34,186 bases of DNA from a virus. The translations under genes were made by a program, and so were the position numbers. Where the stretch lies: IMG/VR virus record IMGVR_UViG_3300025052_000425, positions 1-34,186 of that record; one strand, given 5' to 3'. Below, one piece after another: positions 6,522 through 24,948 of the stretch. Within the stretch, counting starts at the first letter, position 1. Each line of letters begins with the position of its first letter. The notes below the pieces were generated by a model. The model saw only the letters and a program-made list of their open reading frames with translations, was not told the origin of the DNA and made no database searches.

Positions 6522-7283
6522 TTAATGCTTTAAGAATGAATATCGCACCCGTCCAAATAGCGCGAACTGATTAAACGTATCACGAGTAATTAACTGATCT
6601 GGGTAGGTGTCTTTGTCAGTATTATCTGATTTTAATATCACCGTGCCATCTAAATTTTTAATGGTGCGCTTACACATCATTTCGCCATCAGCATTAAACA
6701 CGTAAATCTTATTATTAATAAAGTTATCGTATTCGCTTTCATTGGTGTTTACCAGCATTAGAGTGCCATGCGGTATGGTATTACCCATGCTGTCACTACA
6801 AGCGTGCATCAGCACCAATCCATTGCCATCAATGGGTAGGTCGTTATCTCTTAGAAATTCAACGGTAAACGCTTGGGTATGAGAATCAGGATGTTCAAGA
6901 TTGACGTATCCATTTCCACAGCTGGCTTTGATATCCAAATATTTAATATCAACCAATCCATAATCTGTACGACCGCCAATAATAATATGATCTGAATTCT
7001 TGGCATCCTTTGAGTAGTCCCTGTCTTTTTCGTTAGACAGCGATGACTTAGTCACGCTTCCTATGGCGCCTTGATCAAGCATCTCTCCAATGCCATTTGC
7101 CAGCCAATCAATATTAACCTCAAACACCTTGGCTAGCTCGCTTATATAAGTAGTCCGCTTTGTAAGCCCTTTTTCTATCTTGTAATAACTTGGCTGAGAC
7201 ATACCAGTGGCATCTGCCACATCTTGTTGAGATAGATTCAACCTGTCTCTAGCCAGCTTAACCCTCTCTGCTAATGTGCTCAT
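6522..7283 (-). CDS. cI: CI-like repressor, HTH plus S24 peptidase
   Basis: A 253-residue lysogeny repressor. An XRE helix-turn-helix is at about 4-62 (LNLSQQDVADATGMSQPSYYKIEKG). The C-terminal LexA/CI-type S24 domain spans about 115-250, with probable self-cleavage site Cys122-Gly123 (ASCGNG), catalytic Ser165 (CSDSMG) and Lys205 (MMCKRTIK). SOS/RecA-triggered autocleavage and prophage induction are expected from the family. GGAGG lies 7 bases upstream of the ATG. It is divergent from the cro-like gene across an operator region and heads an operon with two cargo genes. Confidence 0.95.
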   Translation of the reverse strand: MSTLAERVKLARDRLNLSQQDVADATGMSQPSYYKIEKGLTKRTTYISELAKVFEVNIDWLANGIGEMLDQGAIGSVTKSSLSNEKDRDYSKDAKNSDHIIIGGRTDYGLVDIKYLDIKASCGNGYVNLEHPDSHTQAFTVEFLRDNDLPIDGNGLVLMHACSDSMGNTIPHGTLMLVNTNESEYDNFINNKIYVFNADGEMMCKRTIKNLDGTVILKSDNTDKDTYPDQLITRDTFNQFALFGRVRYSFLKH

Positions 7284-8358: not shown

Positions 8359-9057
8359 ATGAATATTCAGACTTTGCAAACAAATAATCAAACAATGAGC
8401 AGTCGAGAAATCGCAGAGCTTTGCGACAAGAACCATTTTCACGTCAAGCGCGATATCGAAACGATGTGCCAACAAATCGAAATAGATGTATCCAAATTTG
8501 GTGGTATCTATTTCGATGCATCAAACCGCCAACAGACTGAGTACCTGCTCGATAGAGATTTAACCATTACTTTGGTATCAGGTTATAACGCAAAGCTACG
8601 CTACCGCATTGTAAAGCGCTGGCAAGAACTAGAAGCGCAAGCAAGTGCACCAGTTATTCCACAAACCTTGTCACAGGCGCTACGATTAGCTGCTGATCAA
8701 GCTGATTTAATCGATAAGCAGAATGAGCGCTTAGCGCTTACTGAGCCTAAAGCTGCAGCATTGGATGTTATCGACTGCGCTATGGGCAGTCTAAACGTTC
8801 GAGATACTGCCAAGGCGCTAGGTATTCCACAAAACAAGTTTGTTAATTGGTGCCTAGGTCATGATTGGATGTACCGCGACAAGCGCAACAAGCTAAAGAT
8901 GAGTAGTATCCGCATGAAGCAAGGCTTTATGGAAGAGCGGGCAGTGACGTATCAAGGCAACAGCAACGAGCGAGTCGCAACCACTCAGCCGCTATTCACG
9001 CCAAAGGGCCTTACGCACCTTGCTAAGACTTTTGCCATCGTTCATGAGGTGGCCTAA
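8359..9057 (+). CDS. Rha-family regulator with KilAC domain
   Basis: A 232-residue two-domain phage regulator. Residues about 13-92 are a Rha domain (SSREIAELCDKNHFHVKRDI, then YLLDRDLTITLVSGYNAKLRY and VKRWQELE). Residues about 120-230 match the antirepressor KilAC domain (LALTEPKAAALDVIDCAMGS, then RDTAKALGIPQNKFVNW). Rha of phage P22 interferes with growth in particular hosts, and KilAC proteins often act as antirepressors or DNA-binding regulators. GAAGGA precedes the ATG by about 9 bases. The stop overlaps the next start by one base (TAATG). Confidence 0.9.
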   Translation: MNIQTLQTNNQTMSSREIAELCDKNHFHVKRDIETMCQQIEIDVSKFGGIYFDASNRQQTEYLLDRDLTITLVSGYNAKLRYRIVKRWQELEAQASAPVIPQTLSQALRLAADQADLIDKQNERLALTEPKAAALDVIDCAMGSLNVRDTAKALGIPQNKFVNWCLGHDWMYRDKRNKLKMSSIRMKQGFMEERAVTYQGNSNERVATTQPLFTPKGLTHLAKTFAIVHEVA

Positions 9058-13190: not shown

Positions 13191-13266
13191 CCGACGGTAG
13201 CTCAGCAGGTAGAGCGCATTACACTGATGTATGAGGTCGCAGGTTCGAGTCCTGCCCAACGGGCCA
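13191..13266 (+). tRNA. Degenerate tRNA-like element (anticodon position CTG)
   Basis: The 76-base spacing of a tRNA is intact. The D arm is GCTC...GAGC, the 5-base variable loop is AGGTC, the T arm GCAGG-TTCGAGT-CCTGC is perfect, and a CCA end is encoded. By position the anticodon is CTG (Gln). However, base 33 is A rather than T, the anticodon stem pairs only 3 of 5, and the acceptor stem (CCGACGG/CCAACGG) pairs 5 of 7. It is therefore a decayed tRNA or a tRNA mimic rather than a confident functional tRNA. Terminators flank it on both sides. Confidence 0.5.
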
Positions 13267-23919: not shown

Positions 23920-24095
23920 TTTGAATAGTGTTTGCAACGAGTATGGTAATACAGTATATTTGCATTTGAGGCGTCGAAACCTCCTAATCAACTAGCGCAA
24001 CCCACAAGCGTAATCGTGGTTTTTTTATGCCTATCTAAAAGGCAAACTCTCATAATAGTGACTCTGTGTCGTTGTGATAAACCACATGTTTCTAT
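23920..24095. other. Non-coding leader before C4-like RNA
   Basis: No convincing gene is present. It contains a weak hairpin CCAC...GTGG followed by TTTTTTT (about 24001-24027), then the 28-bp element also found at the leftward promoter leader (24051-24078). A promoter for the antirepressor unit probably lies here, but I cannot name a -35/-10 pair with confidence. Confidence 0.4.
24051..24078. repeat. 28-bp element, copy B (upstream of antirepressor)
   Basis: This copy is 25 of 28 identical to 5426-5453 and in the same orientation. It lies 18 bases before the C4-like RNA. Its presence at two regulatory loci 18.6 kb apart argues for a shared trans-acting factor or processing signal. Confidence 0.6.
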
Positions 24096-24190
24096 GTCGA
24101 GAGGGCGGCAGCCATACAATACCTTTCGTGGGGAAAACTGCCCGCCGTTCTAGTTGACGGTTTCGAACCTCTCGGCGCCCTTTATTGGGC
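24096..24190 (+). ncRNA. C4-like antisense RNA candidate
   Basis: A branched structure directly upstream of the antirepressor. The outer stem GTCGAGAGG (24096-24104) pairs with CCTCTCGGC (24168-24176; one G-U). Inside are stem GCGGCAG/CTGCCCGC (24105-24111 with 24138-24145, one bulge) and hairpin CCGT-TCTAGTTG-ACGG (24145-24160). The bases TTCTAGTTG (24148-24156) in that hairpin are complementary over 9 positions (one G-U) to CAACTAGGA at 24204-24212, which covers the antirepressor Shine-Dalgarno sequence AGGAG. In phages P1, P7 and N15, C4/CA RNAs cut from the ant transcript block ant translation in this manner. The family assignment is from structure and context, not from a covariance search. 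Confidence 0.65.
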
Positions 24191-24219
24191 AAATTCGAAG
24201 AAACAACTAGGAGTTCATC

Positions 24220-24948
24220 ATGAACGCACTTACCTTTAATGGCACCACCCTTACCACTATCAATCAAGATGACCAAGTCTGGCTAACTTCTAGCGACTTG
24301 GCAATTGCGCTTGGGTATAAGCACATCAAATCTTTAAATAGGATTTATAATTCAAACGCTGACGAATTTACTGAAGCTATGACTAAAGTCATCGAGAGCA
24401 CCGAATCGGTGGTCTCGGCGAAAACAAAGGGATTGACGGCAAAAATACGTATATTTTCATTACGTGGTTGTCATTTGCTGGCCATGTTCGCCCGTACCGA
24501 TATAGCCAAGGCTTTTAGAGTTTGGGTGCTGGATATATTAGAGCGCGAAACCAAGACTACCTCACATCAACGCACACCACTGAGAAAAGCATGTGATCGC
24601 CTAGCAGTGGGAAATATGCTCATCAGTGATGCCTATAAGGTGGTCACCAATCACTATGATGTAGAGCATATTGACCAAATACCAGAGTCGAAACTGCCTG
24701 AAGCGGTCGCCTTCGTCTATGATGTGATACTGGCACGGCAAGCAAGCAATGCTAATAATGCAAAATATATTGATGATATGCACGGTATTGGCTCAAAGAA
24801 GGTTGAAGAGACCCGTCATGCAATCAGTGTGATTCAAAAAGCGCTGGCGTCATTGGATTGTGGCATCGAAGTCATCAAACAGAATAACGAGAAGCAGGCT
24901 AGCGTGTTTGAGAGTTTGAAAAGCCAAACCGCTAGAGTAGTAAAATGA
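24220..24948 (+). CDS. ant: BRO-N domain antirepressor
   Basis: A 242-residue protein. Residues about 1-110 are a BRO-N DNA-binding domain (MNALTFNGTTLTTINQDDQV, WLTSSDLAIALGYKHIKSLN, then FSLRGCHLLAMFARTDIAKA followed by FRVWVLDILE). The C-terminal half is helical with QRTPLRKACDRLAVGNMLIS and a terminal coiled coil. Antirepressors of this type inactivate the CI-type repressor and promote lytic growth. AGGAG lies 6 bases before the ATG and is the predicted target of the upstream C4-like RNA. Its place inside the tail cluster, far from cI, is unusual compared with lambda. A terminator follows. Confidence 0.88.
   Translation: MNALTFNGTTLTTINQDDQVWLTSSDLAIALGYKHIKSLNRIYNSNADEFTEAMTKVIESTESVVSAKTKGLTAKIRIFSLRGCHLLAMFARTDIAKAFRVWVLDILERETKTTSHQRTPLRKACDRLAVGNMLISDAYKVVTNHYDVEHIDQIPESKLPEAVAFVYDVILARQASNANNAKYIDDMHGIGSKKVEETRHAISVIQKALASLDCGIEVIKQNNEKQASVFESLKSQTARVVK

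Follow-up and report, generated by a model that had tools for sequence, protein, structure and literature searches.

An sRNA-Xcc1-family RNA upstream of a phage antirepressor gene as a probable C4-type antisense switch

What does the branched RNA just upstream of a phage antirepressor gene do, and is it a C4 RNA? The question arises in the window, the whole 34,186-nt stretch of viral DNA analysed here, for which a sequence-only reading had proposed an antisense RNA of C4-like type, directed against the Shine-Dalgarno (SD) sequence of the antirepressor gene, ant. The parts of that proposal were recovered where they had been placed, namely a 9-bp closing stem, two internal hairpins and a loop facing the SD, and the open reading frame downstream, on the same + strand as the RNA, does match antirepressor profiles (Table 1). 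The nine-base complementarity described between loop and SD is also there: b2 faces TTCTAGTTG with seven Watson-Crick pairs, one G-U and one A-U.

The family is a different one from that expected. The RNA is a member of sRNA-Xcc1 (RF02221), not of C4 (RF01695): the RF02221 covariance model aligns over its full length (model positions 1-87) with 61.6 bits against a gathering threshold of 53 (E 6e-9). A search with the Rfam C4 model, which the sequence-only reading had recommended, gave no match in the window at E<=10 and none in 12 further RF02221 loci at E<=0.5, and our own covariance model built from RF02221-type RNAs gave no match to the C4 RNA of phage P1 at E<=1. The predicted branched fold rests on family covariation, not on single-sequence thermodynamics. 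Plain folding of the window RNA returns another structure at -32.5 kcal/mol, against -29.4 kcal/mol when P1, P2 and P3 are imposed, so the fold as first described stands on the RF02221 match and on the covariation of its relatives. In the family alignment, stems P1, P2-inner and P3 have a covariation score of 0.60 (0.19 when shuffled, at most 0.13 when slid), with two-sided changes in 16/16 pairs and 96.9% of cells paired; P2 was scored for its inner 3 bp alone, as the outer P2 stem varies in length (RNAalifold loses it on the seed alignment). The P2 internal loop of the family consensus, AUACAAnACC...GGRRAA, is present in the window RNA. Across the family this loop (AAUACAAnACC ... GGRRAAUA) contains the invariant bases, and C4 has no such loop. 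No pairing target was found for it, and it may be a binding site for a protein or an RNase.

Table 1. Coordinates of the RNA, its flanking target sites and the regulated gene in the window
Feature	Position	Strand	Evidence or remark
Sigma-70-like leader promoter, TTGCAA, 17 nt, TATATT	23932-23960	+	consensus scan only; weak evidence
a1 hairpin, GAGG-CGTCGAAA-CCTC	23968-23983	+	presents a1
a1, TCGAAACC	23974-23981	+	exact complement of a' (24159-24166)
b1 target, TCAACTAG	23988-23995	+	8 Watson-Crick pairs with b' loop
Terminator-like element immediately after b1, with CCAC/GTGG stem and T7	24000-24026	+	position after b1; stem and T7 at 24002-24026
sRNA-Xcc1-family antisense RNA, C4-like	24096-24184	+	RF02221 match
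Stem P1 (closing, 9 bp), GTCGAGAGG with CCTCTCGGC	24096-24104 with 24168-24176	+	covariation
Hairpin P2, conserved internal loop AUACAAUACC ... GGGGAA	24107-24142	+	invariant columns in family alignment
Hairpin P3, b' loop TCTAGTTG at 24149-24156	24144-24161	+	own-versus-swapped pairing, covariation
a' segment, GGTTTCGA, 3' side of P3 and junction to stem P1	24159-24166	+	complementary to a1, a2
a2 target, TTCGAAG	24194-24200	+	6 Watson-Crick pairs and one G-U with a'
b2 target, CAACTAGGA, overlapping SD AGGAG of ant	24204-24212	+	pairing with b'
ant, Bro-N antirepressor, 242 aa, regulated gene	24220-24948	+	PF02498 E 3e-10; phrog_2127 'anti-repressor' E 1e-46

RF02221 was sought in whole genomes of the class and the family of a Psychrobacter with a near-identical locus and around two further genomes, and further matches were retrieved. 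DNA patterns and relatives of the antirepressor brought in viral contigs as well; the sampling follows Rfam's model and the Gammaproteobacteria. A covariance model (R1) from 36 RNAs served to locate P3, b' and a', which it did in 161 matches, of which 147 are distinct. The main test used 98 distinct b' loops for which a downstream start could be identified; the start caller required an open reading frame of at least 35 aa. Each loop, with one flanking base per side, was scored by its longest Watson-Crick run against positions -32 to +10 of the start, and all swapped combinations of loop and target, in which the SD is retained, served as control. At least seven consecutive Watson-Crick pairs between b' and b2 were found for 70% of own combinations and 1.7% of swapped ones (permutation z 28.5), and the mean run was 6.70 against 4.03. 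The duplex mostly lies 10-17 nt before the start codon, and in a minority of loci it adjoins or covers the start codon (L083, L085, L087, L129, L132, L157:3772 and L171 have loops that pair over or beside it and not with the SD). Just 5' of b2, a' and a2 share at least six Watson-Crick pairs in 62% of own and 11% of swapped combinations (z 11.8).

There is a second pair of target sites, which the sequence-only reading did not mention. In the window, a1 and b1 (23974-23995) lie about 100 nt upstream of the RNA and are followed by a terminator-like element. Among the relatives, b' matches a b1 site in the upstream 260 nt with at least seven Watson-Crick pairs in 83/97 own combinations (86%) against 5.6% of swapped ones (z 24), and a1, just 5' of b1, matches a' with at least eight in 46% against 3.3% (z 14). 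Both b1 and b2 are matched with at least six Watson-Crick pairs in 80/97 loci. About 17% of loci have fewer than six at the SD, some of these with gapped or shorter matches and others, for instance L121 and L122, with no convincing target.

To allow for the non-independence of relatives, RNAs with bodies at least 80% identical but different loops were also compared in disjoint sister pairs. At the downstream site the own combination was better in 31 of the 33 pairs and the swapped one in none, with two ties (sign test 9e-10); at the upstream site the count was 31 to 0. The compensatory changes of loop and SD that the sequence-only reading had asked of related prophages are present, and they support its central claim, a C4-like antisense RNA directed at the antirepressor SD. 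The same can be seen by eye in the nearest relatives of the window, where the RNA bodies are almost identical and loop, b1 and b2 differ together. The loop CTAGTTG is accompanied by CAACTAG at both b1 and b2, CTGTTTG (L008) by CAAACAG at both, CTTCTTG by CAAGAAG at both and CTACTTG by CAAGTAG at both, while CTTGTTG has CAACAAG upstream and CGACAAG (one G-U) downstream. In these near-identical cassettes three sites spread over about 240 nt (23974-24212 in the window) change in concert. The fold and the four pairings b'/b2, a'/a2, b'/b1 and a'/a1, changing in concert among relatives, are what comparison of the sequences demonstrates. Antisense control of the downstream gene through pairing of loop and SD is the reading that we favour, with a probability of roughly 0.9. 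A block of the ribosome would fit the predicted energies, since the b'/b2 duplex comes out at -10.8 kcal/mol and the SD/anti-SD duplex at -6.8.

The whole is best explained as a bipartite antisense switch of the C4 (P1) or CI (P4) kind on an sRNA-Xcc1 scaffold. One transcript would run from the leader, with a1 hairpin, b1 and terminator-like element, through the 89-nt RNA into ant. The RNA would be excised, and RNase P is the probable enzyme, cutting at the base of stem P1, because R-C-C directly follows the stem, as in RNase P substrates (it does so in 80% of the 147 RNAs), and because C4 offers a precedent (PMC5320573). Its b' loop and a' junction would then bind a2-b2 and mask the SD of ant, so that no antirepressor is made and lysogeny is kept. 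The same two segments would also bind a1-b1 in the leader, most likely causing premature termination and shutting down the operon. Ant would antagonise the CI-like repressor, whose gene lies at 6522-7283 on the - strand. The RNA presumably acts in trans, and the loop sequence would set the specificity, silencing an incoming phage of the same loop type and not one of another. The multi-copy genome G418, with eight RNAs, is suggestive here: for seven of them the own target is the best partner, and for the last one it shares first place with another target. Such near-orthogonal loops hint at action in trans and at (hetero)immunity.

The leader step is the less secure part, and we lean only somewhat towards termination at a1-b1, which is proposed because P4 CI with seqA and seqC is a precedent (PMC4825925). 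In most loci a T-run starts 24-30 nt past b1, and one is found within 70 nt in 80/89 loci against 42% in the control; it is typically preceded by GCGG...CCGC...GCGG. In the window leader the terminator-like stem is weak and is absent from the output of the terminator scan. A scan for sigma-70-like promoters found 4 against 3.4 expected in shuffles, and 37/89 loci have a -10-like hexamer upstream of b1 where about 20% would be expected, a weak enrichment. A different role for the same leader would be that of a decoy: a terminated a1-b1 leader could titrate the antisense RNA and so favour antirepressor synthesis. With the terminator-like element behind it, a1-b1 would yield a short transcript able to pair with a' and b', and the related short RNA IsrK, called a structural homologue of P4 SeqA, activates downstream translation (PMC4825925). 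In P4, however, pairing of CI with seqA and seqC causes termination (PMC4825925), and we consider the decoy rather unlikely as the account of the leader step, noting that both roles can coexist.

It is also conceivable that everything happens in cis, with b' and a' pairing to a2-b2 of the same mRNA in a leader pseudoknot that hides the SD and with no free small RNA. All the pairing data are compatible with one transcript, and the RNA has its target nearby on the same strand. However, family members are discrete and abundant RNAs with defined ends. As an example, an 88-nt RNA with mapped ends is reported from Xanthomonas (Xcc) (PMC2996969), and in E. coli EDL933 the 89-nt sRNA-Xcc1 has 40,293 transcriptome reads and a ribosome coverage of 0.02 (PMC5331693). 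C4 itself is cut by RNase P (PMC5320573); the P1 RNA is processed to about 77 nt and is active when free, according to the part of PMC5320573 that cites Hartmann 1995. The R-C-C after stem P1 fits processing of this type, and the second matched site, 40-160 nt upstream, is not readily explained by a cis pseudoknot, which we judge improbable.

The literature suggests yet another role. sRNA-Xcc1 has been treated as Xcc-specific, integron-borne or virulence-linked, and plant targets were sought as late as 2025 (PMC12189769). RNAs of this family could in that case be general trans-acting regulators with many chromosomal or even plant targets, for which one can point to control by HrpG/HrpX (Chen 2011, as cited in PMC12444791 and PMC12189769, which report it at second hand) and to the many targets computed (PMC2996969, PMC12189769). 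It is very hard to reconcile this with the finding that the most variable parts of the RNAs are complementary to their own flanks and change with them, or with the best-defined groups having an antirepressor or SymE gene downstream; side targets beside the flanking sites are possible. As for the loop/SD match being a by-product of shared ancestry, chance or general SD complementarity, most loops do hold a CU able to meet the AG of an SD such as AGGAG, yet this is ruled out by swapped partners that keep the SD and reach seven pairs in only 1.7%, by the sister pairs, in which similar bodies go with joint differences in loop and target (31 to 0), and by a matching b1 that has no SD role.

The genes downstream of the RNAs are informative in their own right. 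One antirepressor cluster accounts for 37/98 loci, and representatives include Bro-N, P22_AR_N, AntA and Phage_pRha proteins (Pfam), while most other representatives have no Pfam match. In L054 the downstream gene is SymE (PF08845, E 3e-10), and SymE-like toxin genes directly follow RF02221 RNAs in L054, L052, L077, L078, L119 and L120, the Pfam search having been made for L054. The loop matches the SD in 4/6 of these loci and more weakly in L052 and L119. In L077 the RNA and its symE-like gene are bracketed by attC-like sites, i.e. they form an integron cassette, and the loop GCCTTTTG matches the SD region TTGCAAAAGGAG. Integron cassettes of this kind have been reported in Xanthomonas (PMC12444791), and the match suggests that SymE in integrons may be silenced by a C4-type RNA, which would offer an answer to how integron-cassette SymE is kept silent, left open in that paper. 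Other arrangements exist as well: in L094:1168-2540 and L141, cassettes of one RNA and one small ORF stand four in a row within 1.5 kb, and three of the four have a checked loop/target pair of their own. In L098, L137, L092 and L062 short hydrophobic ORFs like type I toxins stand behind the RNAs.

In named phages, which played no part in setting up the test, the same layout recurs. This set comprises 12 RNAs in 11 records, including one Azospirillum plasmid, and at least six Watson-Crick pairs were found for b2 in 11/12 and for b1 in 11/12 RNAs. The RF02221 layout stands upstream of annotated antirepressors in Escherichia phages Rac-SA53 and phi296, Bordetella phage IFTN1, and the Aggregatibacter Aaphi23, Acinetobacter 4316 and Pasteurella Pmp3 phages; one of the antirepressors downstream of such RNAs is annotated KilA-N. 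In Rac-SA53 the top-scoring b1 match differs from the b1 after the a1 hairpin, and IFTN1 has no convincing b1. Annotation can mislead here. In Smp131 (L182:2317-2889, NC_023588.1 24168-24740) the annotated 'anti-repressor' CDS spans the RNA; this annotation looks wrong, and the real gene start probably lies after the b2 site of the RNA. Escherichia phage PPwrbA_EH2201 (L191:963-1050 and 1501-1586) carries two RNA-antirepressor cassettes about 540 nt apart with different loops, and DNA similar to the first is found in 348/5,426 complete E. coli genomes.

The host of the window phage is probably a Psychrobacter, judging by near-identical loci. The phage itself has two candidate antirepressors, ant and a gene at 8359-9057 of antirepressor type, with Rha and KilAC domains, which lies near the CI-like repressor gene. 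At 13191-13263, just upstream of the packaging genes, there is a match to a tRNA gene (44 bits) whose acceptor end is unusual. The placement of the switch inside the tail cluster, to which the sequence-only reading had drawn attention, does occur and is not special, as tail genes likewise flank this cassette in Moraxella phage Mcat14. In P22, ant lies among late genes. An empty site was sought via relatives of the neighbouring genes, and only contigs already seen with the cassette turned up.

Taken further, we think it fairly probable that C4-type phage immunity RNAs come in a second class of distinct structure, made up of the entire sRNA-Xcc1 family with the integron symE cassettes and the virulence-linked RNAs of plant pathogens among its members. 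In this class a three-site code (b1, loop, b2) would set heteroimmunity groups, and the class would have been reused in integrons as a SymE antitoxin. In the literature naming sRNA-Xcc1, from which subscription papers were mostly absent so that an earlier remark is possible, no link to antirepressors or phage immunity was found, and C4 appears beside it in one paper, as a separate annotation. With targets on both flanks, a simple rule of target prediction follows for any member, and the loop rule predicts immunity groups among polylysogenic prophages. The switch is amenable to testing in E. coli, and the concerted change of three sites across some 240 nt raises an evolutionary question.

Several known systems can be set beside this one. 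In P22, sar is an antisense RNA encoded on the strand opposite to ant. Like the proposed switch, it is a small RNA that stops antirepressor translation (PMC12197685), whereas the window RNA lies upstream of ant on the same strand and uses short complementary segments. SymR likewise is an RNA controlling SymE, and several RF02221 RNAs stand directly upstream of symE with matching loops; SymR of E. coli is cis-encoded (PMC12444791), while the RF02221 RNA is upstream on the same strand and has a C4-type loop. P4 CI with seqA/seqC and Gifsy-1 IsrK / STnc1160 share with the window the upstream and downstream complementary sites in one operon (PMC4825925). As regards P4, the window has a complementary site on either side of the RNA as well as a terminator-like element, termination being a feature of P4 and putative here. 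The isrK (RF01394) and c4-a1b1 (RF03163) models match neither the window leader nor 12 further RF02221 loci.

The closest parallel is C4 of P1 and P7 (RF01695, with c4-a1b1 RF03163), which has the same closing stem and two hairpins, with b' in the second loop and a' in the junction. In the antirepressor operon of P1, a2-b2 lies at the downstream SD, and a1-b1 lies upstream with a GCGG...T-run terminator behind it. Run on this locus (L179) as a positive control, our script returned b2 GTTAGTGA downstream and b1 GTTAGTG upstream, each with TTGACAG as the accompanying site (a2 and a1, respectively); CGGACAACCGC...GCGGTATTTTT comes after b1. The differences are those of a separate family: there is no covariance-model match in either direction, stem P1 has about 9 bp in the window RNA and about 17 in the C4 consensus, the conserved P2 internal loop is specific to the former, and Rfam places C4 in clan CL00128 and sRNA-Xcc1 in no clan ('-'). 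Unlike in phage P1, the antirepressor itself is targeted in the window, with no icd-like gene first. Because of the upstream a1/b1 sites and the terminator-like element, the match to P1 C4 and P4 CI is much closer than the downstream pairing alone had suggested, and the element would work like C4, with the operon layout of C4, outside the C4 RNA family.
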